A program made the translations under genes and the position numbers. From Candidatus Desulfovibrio intestinigallinarum (GTDB lineage Bacteria > Desulfobacterota > Desulfovibrionia > Desulfovibrionales > Desulfovibrionaceae), in NCBI GenBank assembly GCA_019114565.1, contig DXFI01000288.1:1-32547 (forward strand): a stretch of DNA of 32,547 nt. The letters are read 5' to 3'. This document shows positions 3,750 to 30,407 of the stretch, piece by piece. The stretch's first letter is position 1, and every line of letters starts with the position of its first letter. The notes under the pieces are model-generated. The model worked only from the letters and a program-made list of their open reading frames with translations. It did no database searches and was not told the origin of the DNA.

Positions 3750-3892
3750 CAGGCATTTTCAGTTTGAAACGTTTTGCATTTCAAAATATACGGCCTGTCG
3801 TTTCGCGGAAAAAACGCGTTTTTTCGCTCACTTTGGGCCGGGCAACGCTGTGCGCGCCTCGCGTTCTGCATTTTCAAGGGCAAAACGCTCTA
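3750..3892 (+). repeat. MITE-like dispersed repeat, copy B
   Basis: aggcattttcagtttgaaacg...cggcctgtcgtttcgcggaaaaaacgcgttttttcgctcactttgggccggg...aaaacgctcta; same organisation as copy A, left end degenerate. Confidence 0.82.
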
Positions 3893-9399: not shown

Positions 9400-9549
9400 T
9401 AGAGCAATTTCAGTTTGAAATGCTTCGCATTTCAAACCATACGGCCTGTCGTTTCGCGGAAAAAGCGCTGTTTTTCCGCTTACTTTGGGCCGGGCGGTGC
9501 TGTGCCGCCGCCTCGCGTTTCTCCTTTTTCAAAAGTGAAACCTTCAGAC
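9400..9549 (+). repeat. MITE-like dispersed repeat, copy C
   Basis: TAGAGCAATTTCAGTTTGAAATGCTTCGCATTTCAAACCATACGGCCTGTCGTTTCGCGG...CCTCGCGTTTCTCCTTTTTCAAAAGTGAAAC; right tip degenerate. Confidence 0.82.
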
Positions 9550-16307: not shown

Positions 16308-16925
16308 CTACACGGCAAATTGCGTCGCTTCGATGCGATCGACCTGCTCCTGCCGCTTTTCATCCAGCAGAGTCAGAGCCAGCGTGTAGGGAGTAATCTG
16401 TTCAAGGCGCAGTTCAAAGGTTTGCAGGAAAAGTTCCATGAAGAGATCAATCATGGAATTCTGCGTCGAGGCAAACCAGATTTCATTGCGATCCGTTGCC
16501 CAGAGGACATTGAATTCCGCGGGAATGGGCAGGAAACGCGCGCGCAGGCGCAGCATGACCTGCTCCTTGATTTCCTTTTTGCGTTCCCGGGCAATAAAGG
16601 TCTTTCCCTGTTCGCTGATGCGGGCCTTTTCTTCCTTGAGCGCAATGGTCAGATGCTTTTTGACCACCGCGGCGGGGATGCGCCGCGTATCAAGCCGCAG
16701 GGAAAAGACAATGTACGCGCCCTTCTGCGGCGGCGCGGTGCGCCAGCGGGTATCCAGCATGTCCTCAAAGCAGACCCAGCCCTTGGACTGCATTTCCGGC
16801 AACTCGTCAATATCCATAAAGGCAAACTGTTTCAGCTTGTCCTCAATGCTCGTCCAGAGTTCGGCAGGCACGGGATCAACGATGCGAAAGCGCGTAAAGC
16901 TGCATGTATTATTGGCAAAACCCAT
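16308..16925 (-). CDS. rdgC: RdgC-like recombination-associated protein
   Basis: MGFANNTCSFTRFRIVDPVPAELWTSIEDKLKQFAFMDIDELPEMQSKGWVCFEDMLDTRW...ARERKKEIKEQVMLRLRARFLPIPAEFNVLW; recalled RdgC pattern, not verified by search. Confidence 0.65.
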   Translation of the reverse strand: MGFANNTCSFTRFRIVDPVPAELWTSIEDKLKQFAFMDIDELPEMQSKGWVCFEDMLDTRWRTAPPQKGAYIVFSLRLDTRRIPAAVVKKHLTIALKEEKARISEQGKTFIARERKKEIKEQVMLRLRARFLPIPAEFNVLWATDRNEIWFASTQNSMIDLFMELFLQTFELRLEQITPYTLALTLLDEKRQEQVDRIEATQFAV

Positions 16926-17102
16926 ACTTTTTCCTGTTGTCGCGCAGAAGGCCCCAGCCCTGCGGAAAAACATCCCGGTAAAAAACAGGCTGTCCGACCG
17001 GCAGCCGAAACACGCGCGCAGTGTACGCGAGAGCATGCGCCTCTGGCAAGGCGTCTCCCCCGTCCTGCCGCACGGCCCGCTTCGTCTCAGGCTCAGAACT
17101 CA

Positions 17103-17251
17103 TAGAGCGTTTCAACTTTGAAAAAAGATGAAACGCGAGGCGGCGGCACAGCGCCGCCCGGCCCGAAGTGAGCGGAAAAACCGCGTTTTTTCCGCGAAAC
17201 GACAGGCCGTATGGTTTGAAATGCGAAGCATTTCAAACTGAAAATGCTCTA
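17103..17251 (-). repeat. MITE-like dispersed repeat, copy E (149 bp)
   Basis: TAGAGCGTTTCAACTTTGAAAAAAGATGAAACGCGAGGCGGCGGCAC...GGTTTGAAATGCGAAGCATTTCAAACTGAAAATGCTCTA; TA at both ends. Confidence 0.87.
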
Positions 17252-17366: not shown

Positions 17367-19994
17367 TCACTTTGCCTTCAGGCCTGCAATATCCTGTTCA
17401 AACTTGGTGCGATAAGCCGCCACGCGGGCCTCCTCAAGCATAATCATGTCGATTTGCCGCGTATGTATGAGCAGATAGCCGAGAATACGCACGCGCAGCA
17501 ACGTCTCCTCCTTGTCGTAGCCTTCGGCCACGGCAAAAAGGGCATCCTTGCGTACATCGACCCGAAAACCTTCCGCCTCCAGCAGTTCGGCAATCAGCCG
17601 GGCGCGCCGCTCCCGGCGCTGGGCATCGGCCGCGCCGCCCTTGAACTGGAAGCTGACGAAGTTCTCGTGCCGATTATCTCCGGCAAGACACTCGACCGTG
17701 CAGAAATGATACCCGTAACGGGCCTGAAGAATCATGTATTTCGAGGAAATAATAAAGAAATTCTTCTCGGCCATGACGGCGGGCGCGGTACTTTCCAAAT
17801 CCTTGTTCATGGCGCTTTCAAAGACGACGCTCATGAAGCCCGCCGCCCCGGAGGACGGCGGCCCGGCCCAGGGAACGGCGGTCATCCCGGCCCAGAGCGC
17901 CTGCATGGGCTCGCAGGCAATATCGCGCAAATCCACGACCGGCCCGGTAACAGGCCGGGAAAAACCGTCGTCCATATCGACGACCCAGTACTGGAGCTTG
18001 ACGCCCGCCTTGAGCTGCTTGCCCGCGCGCTGATCCACATCGGCGTTTTCACCGAACATGAGCTCCACGGCCTTTTCATGACAAAAGCGCGTAATATCAT
18101 GAAAACTGCGGCAGGAAGCCGGAGCGAACTCCGGCGATTCCGGGTCCAGCAGATGCAGCGGCGTCATATACTCGGCCATGCTGCGCAGCGTCTCCTGCAC
18201 GGGACTGCCCTGCATCAGATTGCGCGGCTTCTCGTGACCGGCGAGCAGCTCGGGATACTCGCCGCGCAGAACCACAGCCCTGTCCGCATCCAGCGTCGCC
18301 ATGCCGCCATCGGCCAGCAGAGAGCAGGCGTCAGGCAGACTGAACAATGCGGGCAGGCCATATTCCCGCGCAACCGACGCCAGATGTCCGGCCATGCCGC
18401 CTGTTTCGCTGATCATGGCGGCGGCCTGCGGCAACAGCGGAGCCCAGCGCGGATGCGCCCGCTCCACGACCAGAATCCCCCCCCTGGGGAACGAAAGCAT
18501 GTCCGCATCCTTGCGCGCCACAAACAGAGGCCCGGCGGCAGCGCCGCCGCTGACGGTCATGCCGCCCTGCGCCAGGATGGCCGACGCAGGAATGGAATCC
18601 GGCAGGGGTTCGGCTCTCCCCGCCTCCGCCGTATCCCCGGACTCGGACAGAGGACGGCTCTGCAGCACCACAAGGCAGGAAGCGCCGTCGCGCATTTCCA
18701 GCGCCCACTCCACATCCTGCGGCTCATTGTAAAACTCTTCCAGCGCCAGAGCCAGACGGGCCAGATGCAGCGCCTGCCCGTCATTGATGCAGGCGCGCGC
18801 GCCCTCCTCCGGGCTCAGAGGCGTACGCCGCACGCCCTGCGCGCAGCCCGGCGCGCAATCCAGCCGAAACGGCTTGACGGCAATCTGCCGTTCCAGCAGT
18901 TCCGGCGGGTTGGTGCGGCTGAAGGTAAAGACATCCGGCGTCATGCCGCCGTCCACGACCGCCTGCGGCAAGCCCGGAACGGCGTTGAGCGTCACCTGCT
19001 CCCGGCCCTGCCGCGCAGCCACGGGGTCCCGGCTGTAGGCCACGCCGCCCGCCTCGGCCCGCACCATGCTCAGCACGCCCACGCACATGGGCGCGGCCTC
19101 GTCGGGGATACCGCGCTGAAAACGGTAGCTCATGGCCGTCACGGAATACTTGCTGGCGATGATTTCCTTCCAGACGTCGCAGGCTTCTTCCGGCAGCACG
19201 TCCAGTTCGGAACGATACTGCCCGGCAAAAGTCACCCCCAGCCCGTCCTCGCCCACGGCGCTGCTGCGCAGAGCAAGGCGCAGATCCGGCCCCAGGCGGC
19301 GCTGCATATCGGCAACGGCCTCTTCCAGAGCCGACTCCAGCTCCGGCGGCAGCGAAGCGCCCTGCACCAGCTGCTGCAGCGAGGCCGACAGGCTGAATAC
19401 CGCGTCCAGACTTTCCAGATCGGTACTCTGAATGCGTTGATTGATGGCATCGCGCAACCCGTTGTGCAGCATGAAACGCTCATAGGCCGCCACGGTCACG
19501 GCAAAGCCTTCGGGCACATCCATGCCCACATTGGCGGCCACTTCGCCAAGATTGGCCATTTTGCCGCCCACCAGCGGCATATGCTGGAGGCGAATGTCCG
19601 CCAGCGGCAGGATAAGAGGCACATCCTCCTCGTGCTCGCGCCGGGGAAGACAGGCCTCCATGGACGCATGCACGCGCCTGAAAGCGTCGTTCAGTTCGGG
19701 ATAGGCATTGCCGGAAAGGGCGTTCAGCTCACGCACCATCTGATAGACGGACGCGCCCACGCGCGTTCCAAGCGCCCGCACGGCATCCATGCCGAAAGGA
19801 TGCCCCCCGGAGAGCAGGGCTTCCGCTTCGCTCATGCCCTCCAGCGCCGCCTTGTTGGCGGAAAGCAGCCGACGGAAACGCGCGCACCGCTCCCGCAGAC
19901 GAGCCTTGAGCTCCTCCTCGCGGGCCAGCGCCTCGGGGTCCGGCTGCGCCGGGCCGCGCCTCAGCAGATTGCGTAAACTGTCGAGTACGCCCAT
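17367..19994 (-). CDS. PEP-synthase-like protein: PPDK_N ATP-grasp plus swivelling His domain plus novel C-terminal domain (motif-intact paralog)
   Basis: VGGKMANLGEV...VPEGFAVT; LRLALRSSAVGEDGLGVTFAGQYRS; DVEWALEMRDG..LVVLQSRP; ETGGMAGHLASVAREYGLPA; no recognisable PEP/pyruvate TIM barrel. Confidence 0.85.
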   Translation of the reverse strand: MGVLDSLRNLLRRGPAQPDPEALAREEELKARLRERCARFRRLLSANKAALEGMSEAEALLSGGHPFGMDAVRALGTRVGASVYQMVRELNALSGNAYPELNDAFRRVHASMEACLPRREHEEDVPLILPLADIRLQHMPLVGGKMANLGEVAANVGMDVPEGFAVTVAAYERFMLHNGLRDAINQRIQSTDLESLDAVFSLSASLQQLVQGASLPPELESALEEAVADMQRRLGPDLRLALRSSAVGEDGLGVTFAGQYRSELDVLPEEACDVWKEIIASKYSVTAMSYRFQRGIPDEAAPMCVGVLSMVRAEAGGVAYSRDPVAARQGREQVTLNAVPGLPQAVVDGGMTPDVFTFSRTNPPELLERQIAVKPFRLDCAPGCAQGVRRTPLSPEEGARACINDGQALHLARLALALEEFYNEPQDVEWALEMRDGASCLVVLQSRPLSESGDTAEAGRAEPLPDSIPASAILAQGGMTVSGGAAAGPLFVARKDADMLSFPRGGILVVERAHPRWAPLLPQAAAMISETGGMAGHLASVAREYGLPALFSLPDACSLLADGGMATLDADRAVVLRGEYPELLAGHEKPRNLMQGSPVQETLRSMAEYMTPLHLLDPESPEFAPASCRSFHDITRFCHEKAVELMFGENADVDQRAGKQLKAGVKLQYWVVDMDDGFSRPVTGPVVDLRDIACEPMQALWAGMTAVPWAGPPSSGAAGFMSVVFESAMNKDLESTAPAVMAEKNFFIISSKYMILQARYGYHFCTVECLAGDNRHENFVSFQFKGGAADAQRRERRARLIAELLEAEGFRVDVRKDALFAVAEGYDKEETLLRVRILGYLLIHTRQIDMIMLEEARVAAYRTKFEQDIAGLKAK

Positions 19995-19998
19995 AATC

Positions 19999-20376
19999 CT
20001 AGCCGGCGGCGCGCGCCGCCTCCTCCATTTTCAGGATGAGCTCATTGATGGCCACAGGCTTGAGCATGTAGTCAAAGGCCCCGAGATCCATGCCTTCCAC
20101 GGCAACCCCCAGCGAGGCATGCCCGGTCAGCAGCACCACCGGCAGCGTCGCCGCCACGGCCTTCATGCGCCGCAGGGCTTCCAGCCCGTCCATGCCGGGC
20201 ATGCGCACGTCCATGACCACCACATCGGGAAGCGTGCCCGCCGCAGCTGCCTCCTCCACGGCCCTGACGCCTTCCAGCCCGTCGTGCGCCGTGGACACTT
20301 CAATACCGCGCCGGGAAAGGCGTTTTTCCATCAGCTCCAGAAATTCCCGCTCATCATCCACGAAAAGGGCCCGCAT
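19999..20376 (-). CDS. Stand-alone response-regulator receiver domain
   Basis: MRALFVDDEREFLELMEKRLSRRGIEVSTAHDG...PDVVVMDVRMPGMDGLEALRRMKAVAATLPVVLLTGHAS; no output domain. Confidence 0.93.
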   Translation of the reverse strand: MRALFVDDEREFLELMEKRLSRRGIEVSTAHDGLEGVRAVEEAAAAGTLPDVVVMDVRMPGMDGLEALRRMKAVAATLPVVLLTGHASLGVAVEGMDLGAFDYMLKPVAINELILKMEEAARAAG

Positions 20377-20439
20377 ACGCTCTCCTTATTTAGTTGGGGG
20401 GTGGTGTTTCGGGGCCATTCTCCCGAACAGAACTCTGCC

Positions 20440-22185
20440 TTATGCTTCCTCGTCCTCCGGTTCGGCGGTTGCCGCGGCCTCCGGCGGTTCCGGCGGCAAG
20501 TCGATGCGGAATGTCGTGCCCTGTCCGGGCGTGCTTTCCACCTCGATGCGCCCGCCGAGCTTTTCCAGAATGGAAAAGCAGATGGCCAGACCGAGCCCCG
20601 TCCCTTCACCCACAGCCTTGGTGGTAAAGAAGGGATCGAAAATGCGCTTCATATTTTCCGGGGAAATGCCCGGGCCGGTATCCGTGATGGACAGGCGGGC
20701 CCCCTTGCCGTGCGCCTCGCTGCGCAGAGTGATGGTGCCGTCCTTGCCCACGGCGTCAATGGCATTGTCGATAATGTTGATGAAAACCTGCTGCAGCTGC
20801 GCCGGATCGGACAGAATCACCGGCACGTCCGCCCCCAGCTCGCGCACCAGCTCGATATGCCGTCCCCGGGCTTCCGTCGCCAGAAAGTCCGCGGCCTGAT
20901 CCAACAGCTGATTGGGCATGATCTCCGTGCGGCCGGGGTTCATGCGCCGCCCGAAGCCCAGCATGCGCTGCGTAATGCCCTTGGCGCGCTGCACATGCTG
21001 TTCGATCTTGCCGGTGCTCTCCAGCAGTTCCTTGTAATTCTGCATCTTCGCGGCATCTTCCTCTTCCAGAAGATCGCGCATCCAGCCCGCGTTTTCCTGA
21101 ATCAGCATCAGGGGATTGTTGATCTCGTGGGCCACACCGGCGGCCATCTTGCCCAGAGCCGCCATCTTGCTGGACTGAAGCATGCGGGCGTCAATATGCG
21201 CCTGCTTGCGGTCGGAGGCGGCCAGCGAAGACACCAGCCGCCGCGTGGCGACCAGCGCCCCGAAACCGGTAATCACCAGCCCCAGCAGCACCAGCAGCGC
21301 CACCGAGAGCCGCAGCTGCCGCAGCGGCTGAAGGCTGTCGGTCATGTCGTCCACCACGACCAGAATCCAGGGCATGGTCTCAAGGCGCATCATGGCCACG
21401 GCAGCCCTGGCACTGGATGACGTCGTAGGCTGGAGCGACGACGGCGTCGCCAGCTTTTCCACCACAATGCCGCCTTTGCGCAGCTGCTCCATCTTCAGCG
21501 GCAGGGCAAAATGCCCCATGCTGGAACCGTAATGCCGCGACGGCGTCTGAAGGATACCATCCTCGTTGACCAGAAAAGCGTCGCTGCTGCCTGCGGAATA
21601 AAGGCGCTGCAACAGCGCGCCGATGGCTTCCATGTCGATGGTGGCACGCAGGATGAAGCTGCGCGAGCCCTCGTGACGCAGCACGGCAATAATGAAGTGC
21701 GGCACGTTGCGATAGCCCATGAACACATCGCTGACATAGACTCCCCGCCGCAGCACGGCCTGGAACCATTCCGCCGAGGTATAGTCGGCGGTGCGCAGAT
21801 CAAAGGGGCCCACGTAGGCAACATGTTTGCCGTCCATGCCGATGATGCCCACATCCGCAAAAGAACGGCTGTGCGCCTGCATGACGGAAAAGATGGAACT
21901 CAACCGCTCGGGATCGCTCAATTCCTCATAGGAATGCGTGAACGCCAGCGTCCGAATCTGGGAAACACGCTCCGTCAGAAAGGTGTCCAGCGCCCGGTGC
22001 TTGCTGTTGGTGACGGACTCCAGACCAATGGCAAGCTTTTCATCGTACAGCGCGCCCAGGCGATCATAGCAGAACAGCCCCAGCGCCAGCAGCGGCGTCA
22101 TGGCCAGCAGCAGCAGAAGAAACAACAGGCGACGCCGTATTCCCGCATACCCGCGCTTGGCCACATAGCTCTTGGGTTCGCTCAT
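20440..22185 (-). CDS. Membrane sensor histidine kinase with extracytoplasmic Cache-like domain
   Basis: Two TM segments flanking a Cache-like region; MAAGVAHEINNPLMLIQENA H-box; NIIDNAIDAV; DTGPGISPENMKRIFDPFFTTK; GTGLGLAI. Confidence 0.93.
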   Translation of the reverse strand: MSEPKSYVAKRGYAGIRRRLLFLLLLLAMTPLLALGLFCYDRLGALYDEKLAIGLESVTNSKHRALDTFLTERVSQIRTLAFTHSYEELSDPERLSSIFSVMQAHSRSFADVGIIGMDGKHVAYVGPFDLRTADYTSAEWFQAVLRRGVYVSDVFMGYRNVPHFIIAVLRHEGSRSFILRATIDMEAIGALLQRLYSAGSSDAFLVNEDGILQTPSRHYGSSMGHFALPLKMEQLRKGGIVVEKLATPSSLQPTTSSSARAAVAMMRLETMPWILVVVDDMTDSLQPLRQLRLSVALLVLLGLVITGFGALVATRRLVSSLAASDRKQAHIDARMLQSSKMAALGKMAAGVAHEINNPLMLIQENAGWMRDLLEEEDAAKMQNYKELLESTGKIEQHVQRAKGITQRMLGFGRRMNPGRTEIMPNQLLDQAADFLATEARGRHIELVRELGADVPVILSDPAQLQQVFINIIDNAIDAVGKDGTITLRSEAHGKGARLSITDTGPGISPENMKRIFDPFFTTKAVGEGTGLGLAICFSILEKLGGRIEVESTPGQGTTFRIDLPPEPPEAAATAEPEDEEA

Positions 22186-24824
22186 GACGCGGACTCCTTC
22201 TTCGTCTCCCCGTTTTCAGTATCTCCGGCGGCGGGCGCAAAGGACACGGCACAGGCGGGCGCTTCAAGCCCCTCCGGCAGTCCCCTGCCCGTATAGAGGG
22301 CGCGGCAGTCCGCGAGAATGGAAGCCCGGGTCGCCTCCACCTTGGCAGGCTCCTGCATGATCATGTCCAGCTGCCGGGTATGGATGGTCAGATACCCGGC
22401 CACGGCCAGCAGGCAGCGGCCCTCCTCCATGTCCATGCCGTCCACGCGGGCCACCAGCGCATCGTTGCGCACAACAGGCGAAAGACCGAATTCCCAGAGA
22501 ATATCGGCCACAAAACGCACGCGCAGAATACGGCGCTCGATATTGGCAGCGCCGCCGCGCAACTGAAAGACAAGATAATTTTCGCTGCGCCGCTCGCCCA
22601 GACGGGCCTCCACGGAAACAAAATGGAAGCCGAAGCGGGAATGCAGACTGCAATAGTCGCGGGACACAAGAAAGTAGTTCTTTTCGGAAAAATAACTTGT
22701 CTGTGTCGCCGGATCGAGATTGGGATTGGCCGTGGCCTCAAACAGAACCGAAAGAAAGCCCTTGCCGTCCACCGGCGGCGGCCCCTGCCACGGATAGGCG
22801 TTCATGCCGTACCAGACAAAGAGCATGGGCAGGGACGCTATCTCCTCAATGTCGATATAGGGCTCGTTCCGCTGCACACGGAAGCCGTCGTTCAGATTGA
22901 CGACCCAGAACTGCTTGAGCACCTTGTCGCGCAGCTGTTTGACCCGCACGGCCGCATGCTTTTTGTCCGAGCCGAGCGAGAACATCGCGCTCACGGCCTT
23001 CTCGTGGCAGTAACGGGCAATATCGTGATAGGTCTGGCAGTTGGCGGCCCGGAATTCGATGCTGTCCACATCGTGCGTCAGAGGCAGAATATGCTCCGCA
23101 GCCTTTTGCAGACTGTGCATGACGGGACTCCCCGGCATATAGTCATGCGGCGGCGGCGCCTTGTCGAGCAGGCATTCCACCTGACCGGGGAAGACCACCC
23201 CGCCATCCGCGCACAGCGTCACCATGTCGCCGGTATGAAGCATGCGGCTGGCCTTGCCGACGTTGATGATCATGGGCCGCCCGAATTCGCGGGCCAGCGA
23301 GGCCAGACGGGACCCCATAAGCCCTTCTTCCGCCACAATGCCCGCTGCCACGTCAATGAGCGAAACCCAGCGGTAAATGTCGCGCCGCACCACAAGGATG
23401 TCCCCCTTGCGGATATGGCGGGCATCTTCCCACGAATCGGCCACCAGCACACGGCCGTAGACGCAGCCCCGGCTTGCGGTTTCGCCGCCGCTCAGCAGCG
23501 GCGCGGGGAGCTGATCGCGCTCCTCATGCAGCACGTCATGCAGAGGCGACGCAGGCACATAAATAATGTCGCGCAGCTGCAACAAATAGAAATCGCCTTT
23601 CGGCGTGCGCAGCCAGGTAAAGGCCTGCGGTTTTTCCAGCAGCCGTTCCAGCTTCACGGACAGATCCGCCAGCTGACGCAACGCGTTGTCATCCAGAACA
23701 GGGTGCGCGGGATCGTAGAGACGCCGGGACGTGATCTCGTGCGGTTCGGCGCGGGAGACGTGCACGGAATCCACGGGCAGCAGAGAATATTCCATATCCT
23801 GCGGCAGCCCCGGACAGGCATAAATATGCAGATTGCCGCTGACGGCCAGCGGGTTCGCGGAATGAGCGATACCGCCCACGCCGCCTTCCTCCACCGCCAT
23901 GCAGGCCACGCAGACGCCCGCGCCGCTGTCGGTCAGACCGCGCGCGCGGCGGTAAATGAGAGACTGGGCCTGCTGTTTGCGCGCCAGCGTCGTATGGAAG
24001 GCGGCCAGCACTTCATCGTCCGAGGCGTGCAGGCTCACGGGCGGCCCCCAGATGAGCAGACCGGGATCGCCTTCGCCGCCGACTTCCGGTCCAGGCCAGA
24101 GACGCCCGCGCAGCAAAAGCTGCATGCCCTCCTGCGGACACTGGGCGCGCAGTTGACGCACACCCTCCAGGAAGGCTCCGGCCACGTCTTCCGGCAAGGG
24201 CATGCTTTCCACCAGTTCGCGCAGACTTTCCGAAAGTTCGGCCAGATGCTCCGTGGCGTAGCCGCCCGAAGCCTGCACTCTCCGGCTGAATTCTTCCTGT
24301 AGTTCCTTGCGCTTGAAGACGCGCATACAGCCGGGGGCCGTCATGACGAAGCCCGGGGGCACATGAGCGGCCAGCGTTCTGCCCAGCTGGCCAAGGCGGA
24401 TGGTGCTCGGGTCCGCCAGATGCGGCATGGCCTCAAGATCGGGATGGCCCAGCGGCAGCATCAGCGGGCCGGGCTGCGCTTCTTCGTCTTCGTAGACCTC
24501 GGCGGCGACGATGGCCTGCAATTCGCCAAAGCGTTTGTACAGTTCGGGCGTCGATGCGGGACTCAGCTTTTCCAGCTGCTGTATGCACTGAAAAACCTGC
24601 GTCGCCACGCGGGTACAGAGCGCGCGCACACGGTAGGAGCCGAAGGGATGATCACAGCACAGCGTGTATTCAAGCTCGGTCATGGTTTCCTGAAACTTAT
24701 TCCATGCCGTAAGAAAGAGCTTGAAACGATGGTGCAGCAGCGCAAAGTCCTGCTCGGAGGAACCGACAGCGCGTTTCGGCGTCTCCGAACGGGAAAACAA
24801 TTGTTTCAGGCGGGAAAAAAGCAT
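22182..24824 (-). CDS. Degenerate PEP-synthase-like paralog (predicted pseudo-phosphotransferase) with the same C-terminal domain
   Basis: Colinear with 17367..19994 but GGK-type, RSSA-ED, EW/QSRP and swivelling-His motifs lost; GGAGGGAGC before ATG at 24824; ATGA overlap with kinase start. Confidence 0.82.
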   Translation of the reverse strand: MLFSRLKQLFSRSETPKRAVGSSEQDFALLHHRFKLFLTAWNKFQETMTELEYTLCCDHPFGSYRVRALCTRVATQVFQCIQQLEKLSPASTPELYKRFGELQAIVAAEVYEDEEAQPGPLMLPLGHPDLEAMPHLADPSTIRLGQLGRTLAAHVPPGFVMTAPGCMRVFKRKELQEEFSRRVQASGGYATEHLAELSESLRELVESMPLPEDVAGAFLEGVRQLRAQCPQEGMQLLLRGRLWPGPEVGGEGDPGLLIWGPPVSLHASDDEVLAAFHTTLARKQQAQSLIYRRARGLTDSGAGVCVACMAVEEGGVGGIAHSANPLAVSGNLHIYACPGLPQDMEYSLLPVDSVHVSRAEPHEITSRRLYDPAHPVLDDNALRQLADLSVKLERLLEKPQAFTWLRTPKGDFYLLQLRDIIYVPASPLHDVLHEERDQLPAPLLSGGETASRGCVYGRVLVADSWEDARHIRKGDILVVRRDIYRWVSLIDVAAGIVAEEGLMGSRLASLAREFGRPMIINVGKASRMLHTGDMVTLCADGGVVFPGQVECLLDKAPPPHDYMPGSPVMHSLQKAAEHILPLTHDVDSIEFRAANCQTYHDIARYCHEKAVSAMFSLGSDKKHAAVRVKQLRDKVLKQFWVVNLNDGFRVQRNEPYIDIEEIASLPMLFVWYGMNAYPWQGPPPVDGKGFLSVLFEATANPNLDPATQTSYFSEKNYFLVSRDYCSLHSRFGFHFVSVEARLGERRSENYLVFQLRGGAANIERRILRVRFVADILWEFGLSPVVRNDALVARVDGMDMEEGRCLLAVAGYLTIHTRQLDMIMQEPAKVEATRASILADCRALYTGRGLPEGLEAPACAVSFAPAAGDTENGETKKESAS

Positions 24825-24889
24825 GCTCCCTCCGCAAGAGTGGCCGTTTGCGCGCCGGAACAGCACGAAAAACCATCCGATGCGCATTC

Positions 24890-25037
24890 TAGAGCATTTT
24901 CAGTTTGAAACGCTGCGCGTTTCAAACCATACGGCCTGTCGTTTCGCGGAAAAAGCGCGGTTTTTCCGCTCACTTTTGGCCGGGCGGCGCTGTGCCGCCG
25001 CCTCGCGTTTTACCTTTGTCAAAGGCAAAACACTCTT
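24890..25037 (+). repeat. MITE-like dispersed repeat, copy D (148 bp)
   Basis: TAGAGCATTTTCAGTTTGAAACGCTGCGCGTTTCAAACCATACGGCCTGTCGTTTCGCGG...CCTCGCGTTTTACCTTTGTCAAAGGCAAAACACTCTT. Confidence 0.84.
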
Positions 25038-25226: not shown

Positions 25227-27323
25227 TCATGCCTGCACCGGCGTTCTGCCGGCCGGGCCGACAGGATGCGCCTTTTGCAGGATGTAGACGGCCACCATGA
25301 TGCCGAGCCCCACAAGGTCCGTCACCACGCCGGGCGTGATAAGCGTGATGGCGCCCGCAAGCAGCGCAATCCGCTCATACCAGTGCAGATCGCGCACCCA
25401 GTAGCCCACGCTGGCAAAGGACAGCGAGGCGATACCGGTGGCGGCGGTCACCACGATAAGAGCCACTTCGCCCGCCGAGGCATTGATCATGAGCAGGGCC
25501 GGATTGTAGCAGAAGATATACGGGATGAGGAAGCCTGCCAGCGCCAGCTTGACGGCCATGAAGCCCGTGGCGTTGGGTTCGGAACGGGCAATGCCCGCCG
25601 CGGCGTAGGCCGCCAGAGCCACCGGCGGCGTCAGGTCGGCCAGAATGCCGAAGTACATGATGAAGAGGTGGGCAGCCAGCTGCGGCACGCCGAATTCCGT
25701 AATGGCGGGCGCGGCAATGGAGGCCAGCACGATATACTTGGCCGTCGTGGGCAGGCCCATGCCCAGCACGATGGAGGCCAGCATGGTGAAGAGCAGGGTC
25801 AGCGGGAAGATGCCGCCCGAGAATTCCACGATGGCCGAAGCCAGCTTCATGCCGAGGCCGGTCAGCGTCACCACGCCGATGACGAAGCCGGTGCAGGCGC
25901 AGGCGGCCGCCACGCCGAGAGCCAGGCGTCCGCCGTTTTCCATAGCCTGCAGAACGCTCTGCAGGGAAAGCTGATTCGCTTCCACCACGGCGCGGCCCAC
26001 GCTGATGCCCGAGAAGGACGCGCCGCGCCAGGCCTTCCAGTTATTGGCCAGAATGGAGATGACCACCGTCGTCACAATGCAGTAGTAGGCGGCCTTCAGG
26101 GGCGTATAGCCTTCCACCAGCAGATAGACCAGCGCCACAATGGGAATCAGCAGATAGCCGCCCTCGCGCAGCACGACCCAGACGCGCGGCAGACGCTCGC
26201 GGGGAATGCCCTTGAGGCCGAGGCGCTTGGCTTCCATGTGCACCATAAAGCCCACGGCAAGATAGTACAGCAGCGCGGGAATCAGCGCCGCCTTGGCGAT
26301 TTCCAGATAGCCCACGCCCAGGAACTGGGCCATGATGAAGGCGGCGGCCCCCATGATGGGCGGCATGATCTGGCCGCCGGTGGAAGAGGCCGCTTCCACG
26401 GCCCCGGCGAAGGAACCGCGATAGCCCACGCTCTTCATGAGCGGGATGGTAAAGGTCCCCGTGGAGACGGTGTTGGCAACCGAGGAACCGGAAATGGTGC
26501 CGAAGAAGCCACTGGCAAGAACGGCCACCTTGGCCGGGCCGCCCACATAGCGCCCGGCGGCCGCCAGCGCCAAATCGATGAAGAACTTGCCCAGACCGGT
26601 GCTGTGCAGGAAAGCGCCGAACAGAACAAAGAGGAACACGAAGGAGGCGGACACGGCCAGCGGCGAGCCGAACAGGCCTTCCGTCGTCAGATACATGTGG
26701 CCGATGATGCGGCGCAGCGAGAAGCCCGGATGCCCGAGAATGCCGGGGATGTATTCGCCCAGCAGCGCATAGAGCAGGAAGGCAATGGCGACAAGCGTAA
26801 TGGGCAGGCCCACGATGCGGCGCGTGGCTTCAAGCACCAGCACGACGGCGGCACAGCCGAAATAGAAGTCCAGATCGGTCGGCGGCCCGGCGTCCAGCAC
26901 GATCACGTCGTAGTTCCAGACAATATAGCCGCAGACGGCCGCGCCGGCAGCGGCCAGAAGCACATCGTACCAGGCCAGACGGTCAAGCCTGCCCGTGGCG
27001 CGGGCGGGATAGAGCAGATAGATCAGCGTCAGCACGAAACCGAGGTGGACGGCGCGCTGAATCTGGGGCGGGAACGGCCCCATGGCCGCGGTATAGAGAT
27101 GGAAGGCCGAAAAAATGATGCAGATGCAGCGGATGGCCAGATCCATCCAGCCCTTGAAATTTCTGTAGACGGATTCCTTGTCGTACTTGGCGACGATTTC
27201 GGAGACGTCAACGGTTTCCTGAACTTTTTCGACGGCTTCGGAATTCAGCGTTCCCACGCCTTCCAGGGCGAAGCCGCCTGATCCCTGTTTTTCAATGAGC
27301 TCCATGCGCTCCTTGTGGCTCAT
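25227..27323 (-). CDS. TRAP transporter fused permease (4TM/12TM, TAXI-associated)
   Basis: About 698 aa multi-TM; GFFGTISGSSVANTVSTGTFTIPLMKSVGY, GGQIMPPIMGAAAFIMAQFLGVGYLEI, GLPTTAKYIVLASIAAPA. Confidence 0.93.
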   Translation of the reverse strand: MSHKERMELIEKQGSGGFALEGVGTLNSEAVEKVQETVDVSEIVAKYDKESVYRNFKGWMDLAIRCICIIFSAFHLYTAAMGPFPPQIQRAVHLGFVLTLIYLLYPARATGRLDRLAWYDVLLAAAGAAVCGYIVWNYDVIVLDAGPPTDLDFYFGCAAVVLVLEATRRIVGLPITLVAIAFLLYALLGEYIPGILGHPGFSLRRIIGHMYLTTEGLFGSPLAVSASFVFLFVLFGAFLHSTGLGKFFIDLALAAAGRYVGGPAKVAVLASGFFGTISGSSVANTVSTGTFTIPLMKSVGYRGSFAGAVEAASSTGGQIMPPIMGAAAFIMAQFLGVGYLEIAKAALIPALLYYLAVGFMVHMEAKRLGLKGIPRERLPRVWVVLREGGYLLIPIVALVYLLVEGYTPLKAAYYCIVTTVVISILANNWKAWRGASFSGISVGRAVVEANQLSLQSVLQAMENGGRLALGVAAACACTGFVIGVVTLTGLGMKLASAIVEFSGGIFPLTLLFTMLASIVLGMGLPTTAKYIVLASIAAPAITEFGVPQLAAHLFIMYFGILADLTPPVALAAYAAAGIARSEPNATGFMAVKLALAGFLIPYIFCYNPALLMINASAGEVALIVVTAATGIASLSFASVGYWVRDLHWYERIALLAGAITLITPGVVTDLVGLGIMVAVYILQKAHPVGPAGRTPVQA

Positions 27324-27334
27324 TCACGATCCCC

Positions 27335-27925
27335 CTATTGAGCTGCGCCGCCTTCGGGCGGGCGTATGGGGCCTCCGTCGGCATCGTCCCGACCGAGACC
27401 AAAAGTAATAACCTGACCCGGACGGGCCAGAGAGTCCAAAGGTACAGCCTTTCTTCTGCCGGAAGCATCGTCCAGCAGAAGCGTATGCTGCGCCACCCGC
27501 CCGACGCGCACGTCAAAGCTGGGCAGCGGTCTGCGATAGCCGTCCATGATAACGCGGCCCCCCTCGACCCGCATGCTTTGTCCCTGCTCCGGAGCATGCG
27601 GCAGGCCCGCGCCGAAATCCTGATATTCCGATCGCTGCAGTTCGATAACACCGTCGACCACGGCGAACCAGTCTTCCACCGGCGTCAGCGCAACCGAATG
27701 CTTGTAGCGGATGGCAAAGGTCATGCCGTTCCATGCGGGGGTGCTCCACAGCAGATCGCCGCGGGCATCGCGCAGTTCCAGCCGCTGCCGGACGTTTTCC
27801 GCCGGAGCGGCCATGACCCCGCCGAAAAAATTCGGCAATATCAGCGCAAGTACCATGAACAGGCGGGCATAATGCCGTATTCGGCCCCCAAGGGCAAGCC
27901 CGCAACCGCGAGCAACTGATTCCAT
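27335..27925 (-). CDS. DUF1850-type protein
   Basis: Located between TAXI SBP and fused TRAP permease; LWSTPAWNGMTFAIRYKHSVALTPVEDWFAVVDG pattern. Confidence 0.75.
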   Translation of the reverse strand: MESVARGCGLALGGRIRHYARLFMVLALILPNFFGGVMAAPAENVRQRLELRDARGDLLWSTPAWNGMTFAIRYKHSVALTPVEDWFAVVDGVIELQRSEYQDFGAGLPHAPEQGQSMRVEGGRVIMDGYRRPLPSFDVRVGRVAQHTLLLDDASGRRKAVPLDSLARPGQVITFGLGRDDADGGPIRPPEGGAAQ

Positions 27926-27942
27926 AAAGGCACCGCCTTGTT

Positions 27943-27985
27943 CGCAACAAAAAAAGAAGGCGGGCGACGCAGCGTCGCCCGCCCC
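27943..27985 (-). terminator. Intra-operon hairpin/terminator between the TAXI SBP and DUF1850 genes
   Basis: GGCGGGCGACGCAGCGTCGCCCGCC stem; minus-strand TTCTTTTTTTGTTG tail. Confidence 0.75.
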
Positions 27986-27999
27986 GCCGGAAAAATGCG

Positions 28000-28947
28000 T
28001 TACTTCACGCCCTTTTCCTGGAGATACTTTTCAGCGCCGGGGTGGAAGGGAATGGTCACGCCCTGACGCGCCTTTTCGAGGGAAATTTCGCTGCCCTTGT
28101 TGTGGGCCTTGGCGATGTCGTCCACATTTTCATACAGCAGCTTGGTCAGATTGTAGGCCATGTCGTCGGGCATGTCCTTGTTGACCACCAGAATGGCCTG
28201 CACGGACAGGGTCGGCACGGGCTTGTCCTGACCGCTGTAGGTCTTGGCGGGGATGGCGTCCTTCACGAGGAAGGGGAACTTCTTCACGATATCGTCAACC
28301 TTGGGACCTTCCAGAGGCACGAAGACCACCTTCTGGGCCGTGGTGATGTCCTGAATGGCGGGGTTGGGGGTGCCGATGGTGAAGACGAAGGCGTCGATAT
28401 GACGGTCCTTGAACTGATCGGCCGTTTCGCCATAGGGCAGGAAGATGGGTTCCACGTTCTTGTAATCAAGACCGAAGAAACCGAAAATCTGGCGGCAGTT
28501 CACTTCATTGCCGCTGCCGCGGGCGCCCACGGAAACCTGCTTGCCCTTGAACTGCTCAATGCTCTTGATGCCGCTTTCTTCGCTGGCCACAAGGTGCAGG
28601 TATTCAGGATACAGGCGGCCGATGGCGCGCACGTTGGCCAGCTTGGAGCGGAAGGGCGCGGAACCCTTATAGGCGGCGTCGGCCACGTCATTCTGCACGA
28701 TGGCGAAGTCCACTTCGCCCATTTCCACAAGGCGCATGTTTTCGCCGGACGCGCCCGTCGCCTGCGGCGTCACGGAGAACTTGCCGTCGCTCTTGGAGGA
28801 AATCACCTGACCAATGGCGCCGCCCAGGGGGAAATACACGCCGGAGGTGCCGCCCGTGGCAAAGGTAAGGCGTTTGGCGTCGGCAAAAGCGGACGCGGCG
28901 GACAGCACAAGACCGGCCGCAAGAAGAAGGCTGAGAAGTTTTTTCAT
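28000..28947 (-). CDS. TAXI-family TRAP transporter solute-binding protein
   Basis: MKKLLSLLLAAGLVLSAASAFADAKRLTFATGGTSGVYFPLGGAIGQVIS...SGENMRLVEMGEVDFAIVQNDVA; start refined to 28947. Confidence 0.94.
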   Translation of the reverse strand: MKKLLSLLLAAGLVLSAASAFADAKRLTFATGGTSGVYFPLGGAIGQVISSKSDGKFSVTPQATGASGENMRLVEMGEVDFAIVQNDVADAAYKGSAPFRSKLANVRAIGRLYPEYLHLVASEESGIKSIEQFKGKQVSVGARGSGNEVNCRQIFGFFGLDYKNVEPIFLPYGETADQFKDRHIDAFVFTIGTPNPAIQDITTAQKVVFVPLEGPKVDDIVKKFPFLVKDAIPAKTYSGQDKPVPTLSVQAILVVNKDMPDDMAYNLTKLLYENVDDIAKAHNKGSEISLEKARQGVTIPFHPGAEKYLQEKGVK

Positions 28948-29170
28948 GACTCTCTCCTGCAAAAAAAGTCTCCGGAACTTCCGGATCGGATGCGGAAAGC
29001 CCGCGCATTGCCCCAGTATAAAGGAATCATGCCCCATTGGCAAACAGGCGGCACGGCACGGGCGGCCGCTCCGCGGCGCTTGCCGCCGGGCCTCCCGTGG
29101 TTTATTCTGAAGATCGGCACAGTCCAGCACGGCCTGCTCCGTAACACGTCCTTGCCACAAGGAGTCTGCC

Positions 29171-30019
29171 ATGAAATCCCGCACGGCCACTCTTGCCCTG
29201 ACAGCCCTGCTTGCCGCAACGCTGCCCCTTTCCGCCTGCTCCGGCAGCCGCTACCCCGCCCGGCAGACAGAGGTCACCTATTATCCCCAATGCTATCAGC
29301 CCATTGACCGCCTGCGTCAGGACGAACAACTTACCAATAATACCACCGTGGGCGGCGCTGTGGGCGGCGCTCTGCTGGGCGCTCTCATCGGCGGCCTGAG
29401 CACAGGCAAGGTGGAAGGCGCTCTTGTGGGCGCGGCCGCCGGCGGCGCGGCCGGCGCCATAGGCGGCAATATCTACGGCAAACAGAAGACCGCCGAACGC
29501 GATGCCGACTATCTGCAGCAGTACGCCCGCAGCCTCGGCGAAGATGCCGCCAGCATGAACCGCGCCACAGCCGCCGCCAGGGTATCCCTGCGCTGCTACG
29601 ATCAGCAGTTCCATCTGGCTGCCAATCAGTACCGCGCGGGCTCCATTTCCCGCACGGAATTTGAAGCGCGCTATCAGGAAATCCGCAGCGGCCTTCAGGA
29701 AACCTCCGCCATTCTCGGCAGCACGGCCACGACCATGCAGGAACGGGACAGGGAATATCAGGCGACCCTGCAACGACAGGAGGAACAACGCGCCCAGGCA
29801 TCCGCGCCGACGCCCGCGCCCGCGCCGCGCGCCACGACGCCGAAGACCAGGAAGCCCCGGACGCAGAAGGCGGCGACGCCCGCCCCCCGCACCACGCCGG
29901 AAGTTCAGCGCAAGAGCAATGAATTCAAGGCCGCGCAACGCGATCTTGATTCCGCGCGGCAGGATGTGGACAAGCGCATCAACAGCTACGAAAATTCGGT
30001 TGCGGCCCTGCTCGGCTAA
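29171..30019 (+). CDS. Glycine-zipper lipoprotein
   Basis: LSAC lipobox; NNTTVGGAVGGALLGALIGGLSTGKVEGALVGAAAGGAAGAIGGNIYG. Confidence 0.85.
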   Translation: MKSRTATLALTALLAATLPLSACSGSRYPARQTEVTYYPQCYQPIDRLRQDEQLTNNTTVGGAVGGALLGALIGGLSTGKVEGALVGAAAGGAAGAIGGNIYGKQKTAERDADYLQQYARSLGEDAASMNRATAAARVSLRCYDQQFHLAANQYRAGSISRTEFEARYQEIRSGLQETSAILGSTATTMQERDREYQATLQRQEEQRAQASAPTPAPAPRATTPKTRKPRTQKAATPAPRTTPEVQRKSNEFKAAQRDLDSARQDVDKRINSYENSVAALLG

Positions 30020-30330: not shown

Positions 30331-30407
30331 CCCTTAAAGCGTTTTTTCTGTGAAATGACAGGCCGTATGGTTTGAAATGCGAAGCGTTTCAGACTGAAAA
30401 TGCTCCA
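30331..30407 (-). repeat. MITE-like repeat, copy F (truncated)
   Basis: GCGTTTTTTCTGTGAAATGACAGGCCGTATGGTTTGAAATGCGAAGCGTTTCAGACTGAAAATGCTCC matches one half of copy E. Confidence 0.75.

Follow-up and report, generated by a model that had tools for sequence, protein, structure and literature searches.

Four minus-strand genes of Candidatus Desulfovibrio intestinigallinarum form a conserved cluster, which we read, with a probability of roughly 0.5, as a phosphotransferase module under two-component control that includes a pseudoenzyme partner and works with an anion permease of the TSUP (TauE/SafE) type. The cluster lies in a window of 32,547 nucleotides, i.e., the whole stretch of DNA analysed, and encodes a catalytically dead PEP-synthase-like protein (PPSR), a histidine kinase (HK), a receiver-only response regulator and a motif-intact PEP-synthase-like protein (PPSH). 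Its building blocks are known, but there appears to be no earlier description of the C-terminal domain found across the family, of the association with permeases and receivers or of the conserved pseudoenzyme. A literature search of open-access papers returned no description of the PPS-like family or of the pseudoenzyme, and the D. vulgaris fitness and response-regulator papers do not discuss genes of the window-cluster type. To our knowledge, the substrates and control of the TSUP permeases of sulfate reducers are unknown, and a nitrate cluster reported in 2014 had stayed unexplained. A PPS-like family that has a shared domain and accompanies both these permeases and stand-alone receivers provides a concrete hypothesis for the control of anion uptake.

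The original prediction had placed four open reading frames on the minus strand in the order PPSR, HK, receiver, PPSH, and all of its coordinates were confirmed (Table 1). The ATGA overlap it described between PPSR and HK amounts to four shared nucleotides (22182-22185), the receiver and PPSH are separated by four nucleotides (19995-19998) with PPSH beginning at the fifth, and the terminator expected after PPSH is a strong hairpin. HK and the receiver are 63 nt apart. The PPSR frame is open as far as a possible start at 24887, and the ATG at 24824 is preceded by a GGAGG Shine-Dalgarno sequence. Judged by this spacing, the four genes are likely to be one transcription unit.

Table 1. Features of the cluster and related elements; positions refer to the window unless a locus is named.
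Feature	Position	Strand	Remarks
PPSR (880 aa)	22182-24824	minus	catalytically dead PEP-synthase-like protein; bundle, degenerate ATP-grasp, Arg506 swivel, conserved C-terminal domain
C-terminal domain of PPSR	22290..23126	minus	~residues 567-845; family invariant residues kept; retained in relatives without catalytic domains
HK	20440-22185	minus	membrane protein; dCache-like periplasmic sensor; HisKA and HATPase_c intact
Receiver-only response regulator	19999-20376	minus	phospho-acceptor D56 and D7/D8, T84, K106 intact; without output domain
PPSH (875 aa)	17367-19994	minus	PEP-synthase-like, motifs intact
N-terminal helical bundle of PPSH	19653..19937	minus	residues 20-114, AlphaFold2 model; putative docking/dimerisation role
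ATP-grasp (PPDK_N) of PPSH	18645..19613	minus	residues 128-450
Swivelling phospho-His domain of PPSH	18264..18578	minus	residues 473-577
Codon of predicted catalytic His537 of PPSH	18384..18386	minus	aligns with the PEP synthase swivel His
C-terminal domain of PPSH	17370..18203	minus	residues 598-875; replaces PEP/pyruvate barrel; no Pfam, PDB or Foldseek match
Intrinsic terminator	17338-17305	minus	13-bp stem and T tract; directly 3' of PPSH
Copies of ~115-bp repeat	2865-2899, 3779-3813, 9430-9464, 17127-17243, 24920-24954, 30343-30377
mini-PPSR	L047:11214-12311, L097:5760-6896, L098:5567-6874		different kinase downstream in L097 and L098

HK and the receiver have the make-up of a two-component pair, i.e., a kinase with HisKA and HATPase_c domains, both above the Pfam cut-off, and a receiver with the DD/D/T/K residues. 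The dCache_1 match of HK scores 42.4 bits, just under the cut-off of 45. A simple hydropathy scan found two membrane segments in HK and none in PPSH or PPSR.

The catalytic motifs of PPSH, namely VGGK, RSSAVGED, FAGQ, DVEWA, LQSRP and GGMAGH (His537), are all present. Pfam returns only two matches, PPDK_N (PF01326) at 258 bits and the PEP-utilising mobile domain at 59. The Lys, Arg, Glu, Gln and Arg motifs of the PPDK_N ATP-grasp site align in PPSH but not in PPSR, and the swivelling catalytic His is His537 in the former and Arg506 in the latter. The AlphaFold2 model of PPSH (mean pLDDT 87.6) has four parts (residues 20-114, 128-450, 473-577 and ~598-875), and that of PPSR (pLDDT 83.5) follows the same plan. 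The earlier view of PPSH as a PPDK_N/swivelling-His protein that is coupled to signalling and accompanied by a degenerate paralog is thereby supported.

PPSH shares with PEP synthase (PpsA, TIGR01418) the catalytic motifs and the order of ATP-grasp then swivelling His, and its matches to PPDK_N and PEP-utilizers would suit an ordinary PEP synthase. However, the PEP/pyruvate TIM barrel is absent (no PEP-utilizers_C match in Pfam), and PPSH has an N-terminal helical bundle and an unclassified C-terminal domain. Since this domain takes the place of the barrel, PPSH is not a PEP synthase, as had been anticipated; its score against the PEP synthase equivalog is 274 bits, far under the cut-off of 739.75. 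The genome also encodes a separate PEP synthase-like protein of 1203 aa, recognised by motifs alone, beside a pyruvate-carboxylase-like ORF, and we consider an ordinary PEP synthase scarcely conceivable here. PPSH also falls far short of the cut-offs for other members of the class, with 212 bits against the rifampin phosphotransferase equivalog (NF041857, cut-off 999) and 39.8 bits against that of pyruvate phosphate dikinase (TIGR01828, cut-off 843.45). Rifampin phosphotransferase likewise combines the ATP-grasp and phospho-His modules with a third domain exchanged for another function, but its order is ATP-RIF-His, whereas that of PPSH is ATP-His-C. The HpeI/phenylphosphate synthase type shares the PPDK_N ATP-binding module (9goj is among the top Foldseek matches), but those systems have split subunits, while here there is a single chain and a pseudoenzyme.

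The C-terminal domain ends both PPSH and PPSR, is alpha/beta with ~280 residues (AlphaFold2), and is the best conserved part, always kept by PPSR. Among its many invariants are C-x(3)-HD-x(2)-R-x(2)-H, R-x-G-x-H, GGAA and RQ-x-DM. At E 10 its profile matched no PDB sequence, and Pfam offered no credible family; a Foldseek search of the PDB returned PPDK_N/swivel-type enzymes, followed by general ATP-grasp and Enzyme I folds, with none for this domain. Neither this domain nor the links to TSUP permeases and to the nitrate cluster figured in the original prediction.

PPSR has lost the catalytic motifs of PPSH and carries Arg506 in place of the swivel His, which bears out its description as degenerate. 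The ATP-site Lys, RSSA, FAGQ and DxEWA are gone from every PPSR examined and the swivel His has become Arg (once Gln), whereas the aligned sequences of PPSH and of the wider family retain the catalytic motifs with small variations. In a quick tree of the C-domain, which has long branches elsewhere, the PPSR sequences form one clade (SH-aLRT 100) and its neighbour is a motif-intact protein of another genus (SH-aLRT 94), therefore catalysis was most simply lost once. Identity of the window PPSR to this intact sister is 30% in the ATP-grasp, 40% in the swivel and 55% in the C-domain, and that of PPSH is 47% in the ATP-grasp and 48% in the C-domain; the divergence of PPSR lies mainly in the ATP-grasp and swivel.

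The absence of every catalytic motif could also mean that PPSR is a functionless, decaying duplicate and the cluster a mere neighbourhood. However, PPSR is under purifying selection: its pairwise omega is 0.05-0.18 in the N part and 0.04-0.10 in the C-domain, PPSH is about alike, and values across all domains of both proteins are ~0.04-0.18. Motifs of its own (RGRLWP, LWGP) are conserved, it is retained across genera, and its C-domain survives the loss of the catalytic domains. In three lineages, Desulfovibrio sp. OH1186 and two goat-cecum MAGs, a mini-PPSR of 365-435 aa consists of a remnant bundle and a C-domain 51-58% identical to that of the window, with the ATP-grasp and swivel gone, and its gene still adjoins those of the receiver and PPSH. 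As natural deletions, these lineages show that the catalytic domains of PPSR are dispensable, and a pseudoenzyme cut down to bundle and C-domain points to where the function is located. Neutral decay was rejected on the omega values and on the C-domain kept in mini-PPSR, and we regard a functionless PPSR as highly improbable.

It had been suggested that the cluster might be conserved in relatives, and the neighbourhood check found its order in most sampled Desulfovibrio and in at least two other genera. PPSR is present in 36 fetched loci, 21 of which showed the strict order PPSR-HK-receiver-PPSH in the gene calls, with gene-calling or contig ends masking it at several others. The arrangement is not due to chance. 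A profile search with the C-domain recovered the wider family in 146 of the 395 sampled genomes of the phylum, and also in MAGs placed in the Acidobacteriota and Myxococcota. FliI/FliH-like neighbours occur in several Desulfovibrio and were read as adjacency by chance. Receiver-PPS fusions, looked for as Rosetta-stone evidence, were not found. Directly 3' of one family PPS gene is a cytidylate-kinase-like domain with a receiver fused behind it (L107:9810-11108).

The recurrent companions of the family are TauE/SafE permeases. Across 17 finished genomes, a PF01925 gene lies within 10 kb of 34 of the 57 family genes, with 2.5 expected at random. Outside the genus group of the window, a TauE/SafE gene was found at 35 of 55 loci and a stand-alone receiver at 33 of 55, counting same-strand neighbours up to five genes away. 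The layout seen most often runs HK, receiver(s), TauE (~430 aa), p235 and PPS, sometimes followed by a DASS transporter, where p235 is a membrane protein of ~235 aa and the companion of TauE. The link is seen separately in four paralog groups (A, B, nitrate-type and tandem), and at one locus in Desulfovibrionaceae (L099) TauE-p235 stands immediately before PPSR-HK-receiver-PPSH. Group B, which has a sigma54 activator and a 350-aa TauE, occurs in the genome of the window as well: a second family member adjoins a dCache sigma54 activator (L173:8166-15026; G000:C232), and this pair is divergent from a TauE permease and a ~98-aa membrane protein, a layout similar to that in G123 (L186). Elsewhere, three tandem family PPS genes lie beside a TauE permease of 312 aa and a universal-stress-like ORF (L190:5925-16135).

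The window cluster itself has HK and the receiver, but no TauE, companion or PtxB gene adjoins it, and its neighbouring transporters are of the TRAP type. TauE and p235 are encoded on another contig (G000:C262), thus the permease link of this cluster rests on co-occurrence and on relatives. Co-occurrence of group-A PPS and p235 was 136/10 versus 4/49 in 199 genomes of the order, and 28/5 versus 0/5 (p=0.0005) within the genus of the window, where the two are unlinked; these genomes are related rather than phylogenetically independent, so that p-values overstate their independence, although the co-absences do fall in several genera. Five members of the genus have p235 without a group-A PPS, and so PPSH is not always required. 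On balance, the module probably belongs with TSUP permeases.

A physiological context is likely provided by this permease link together with the Desulfovibrio nitrate cluster, printed as DVU0251-DVU0245 in D. vulgaris and Dde_0598-0605 in D. alaskensis (PMC4001038). D. vulgaris transposon insertions in DVU0251, DVU0250, DVU0247 and DVU0246, i.e., the permease, companion, receiver and PPS-like genes, share one phenotype, growth insensitive to 100 mM nitrate, and none helped against nitrite; for DVU0250 the pooled and single-mutant data disagree (PMC4001038). That study put forward a leaky thiosulfate transporter (PMC4001038). Since receiver and PPS mutants share the permease phenotype, both proteins are required for the same output as the permease. 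Loci in G171, G088, G049 and other genomes, with not all elements recovered at each, run TauE, a ~220-aa protein, a PtxB-like lipoprotein, HK, a 119-aa receiver and PPS, followed in G171 and G088 by a dual-specificity-phosphatase-like ORF. This is the order of the nitrate cluster, and a family member occupies the position of DVU0246. The C-domain profile matches the PPS protein of these loci, mostly at E near 1e-60, and like PPSH this protein has PPDK_N and the mobile domain without a barrel. Gene order and annotation suggest that the family member would be the equivalent of DVU0246.

The window cluster resembles the nitrate cluster in its kinase, receiver-only protein and PPDK_N/mobile-domain protein, and in the TauE permease and small membrane protein that go with them. 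However, the nitrate cluster has a PtxB-type lipoprotein and a phosphatase and lacks the PPSR pseudoenzyme, its PPS protein belongs to a distant paralog group (N), and the permease of the window cluster is unlinked. NO lowers both a sigma54-type protein and the 'pyruvate phosphate dikinase' next to it (Ddes_1643-1644) in D. desulfuricans 27774 (PMC5701242), and this arrangement resembles the group B layout.

The TSUP-permease neighbours and the nitrate-sensitivity mutants together look like an undescribed control of anion transport. In the mechanism we propose, the membrane HK would detect a periplasmic ligand and phosphorylate the receiver-only protein, which would then dock on a PPSH/PPSR assembly, probably via the N-terminal helical bundles, and switch PPSH. 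Phosphate from ATP would pass to His537 in the swivelling domain and on to an acceptor that the C-terminal domain presents. PPSR would contribute only its bundle and C-terminal domain, as pseudoenzyme partner or scaffold, and the output would set the activity of the TauE-type permease and small membrane companion encoded elsewhere in the genome. We infer the phosphotransfer, the binding partners, the acceptor and the direction of control from the evidence above. That PPSH transfers phosphate under control of the receiver is plausible at somewhat less than even odds, and a direct protein acceptor in place of a small molecule, namely the permease or p235, is a tentative suggestion that we rather doubt. 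Equally speculative is the boldest form, a new class of signal-transduction phosphotransferase, widespread in sulfate-reducing Desulfobacterota, in which a receiver-switched, ATP-driven swivelling-His enzyme and its pseudoenzyme would directly phosphorylate or gate TSUP anion permeases via the undescribed C-terminal domain.

PPSH could instead be a metabolic dikinase or ligase, comparable to phenylphosphate synthase or rifampin phosphotransferase, which phosphorylates a small molecule imported by a permease; the C-domain would then be the substrate pocket, and the two-component pair and PPSR would tune activity. The invariant polar residues of the C-domain form a constellation that resembles a binding site, transporters adjoin family genes, and among characterised PPDK_N/His proteins that carry a third domain, small molecules are the usual substrates. 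However, PPSR keeps the same C-domain invariants without a working catalytic domain, a pattern better suited to binding or scaffolding; catabolic enzymes do not recur beside the family, with receivers rather than pathway genes repeatedly paired; and loss of the DVU0246-type gene gives the phenotype of permease loss. We judge a metabolic enzyme unlikely. A phosphorelay that PPSH feeds or drains by exchange of phosphate between its phospho-His and the receiver Asp, as in HPt-type relays, with the module as an ATP or energy-charge input to the receiver, would fit an intact receiver without an output domain, the occurrence of family members with stand-alone receivers, and phospho-His to Asp transfer, which is common chemistry. 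Yet it leaves the C-domain without a role and the receiver would still need a further target, making it more doubtful again than the metabolic enzyme.

Upstream of the cluster, on the same strand (25227-29190), lies a TRAP-type transporter unit with a DctM-fused permease, a DUF1850 protein and an NMT1_3 (TAXI-like) receptor; it was rejected as a cluster partner because it does not recur as a neighbour in relatives. Just past the terminator and a repeat copy, 16308-17036 gives a weak match to an RdgC-like exonuclease. The high-copy intergenic repeat (~115 bp) lies on both sides of the cluster, and its 48 scored matches genome-wide, drawn from 673 first-look candidates, are mostly 97-100% identical, several of them at contig ends.
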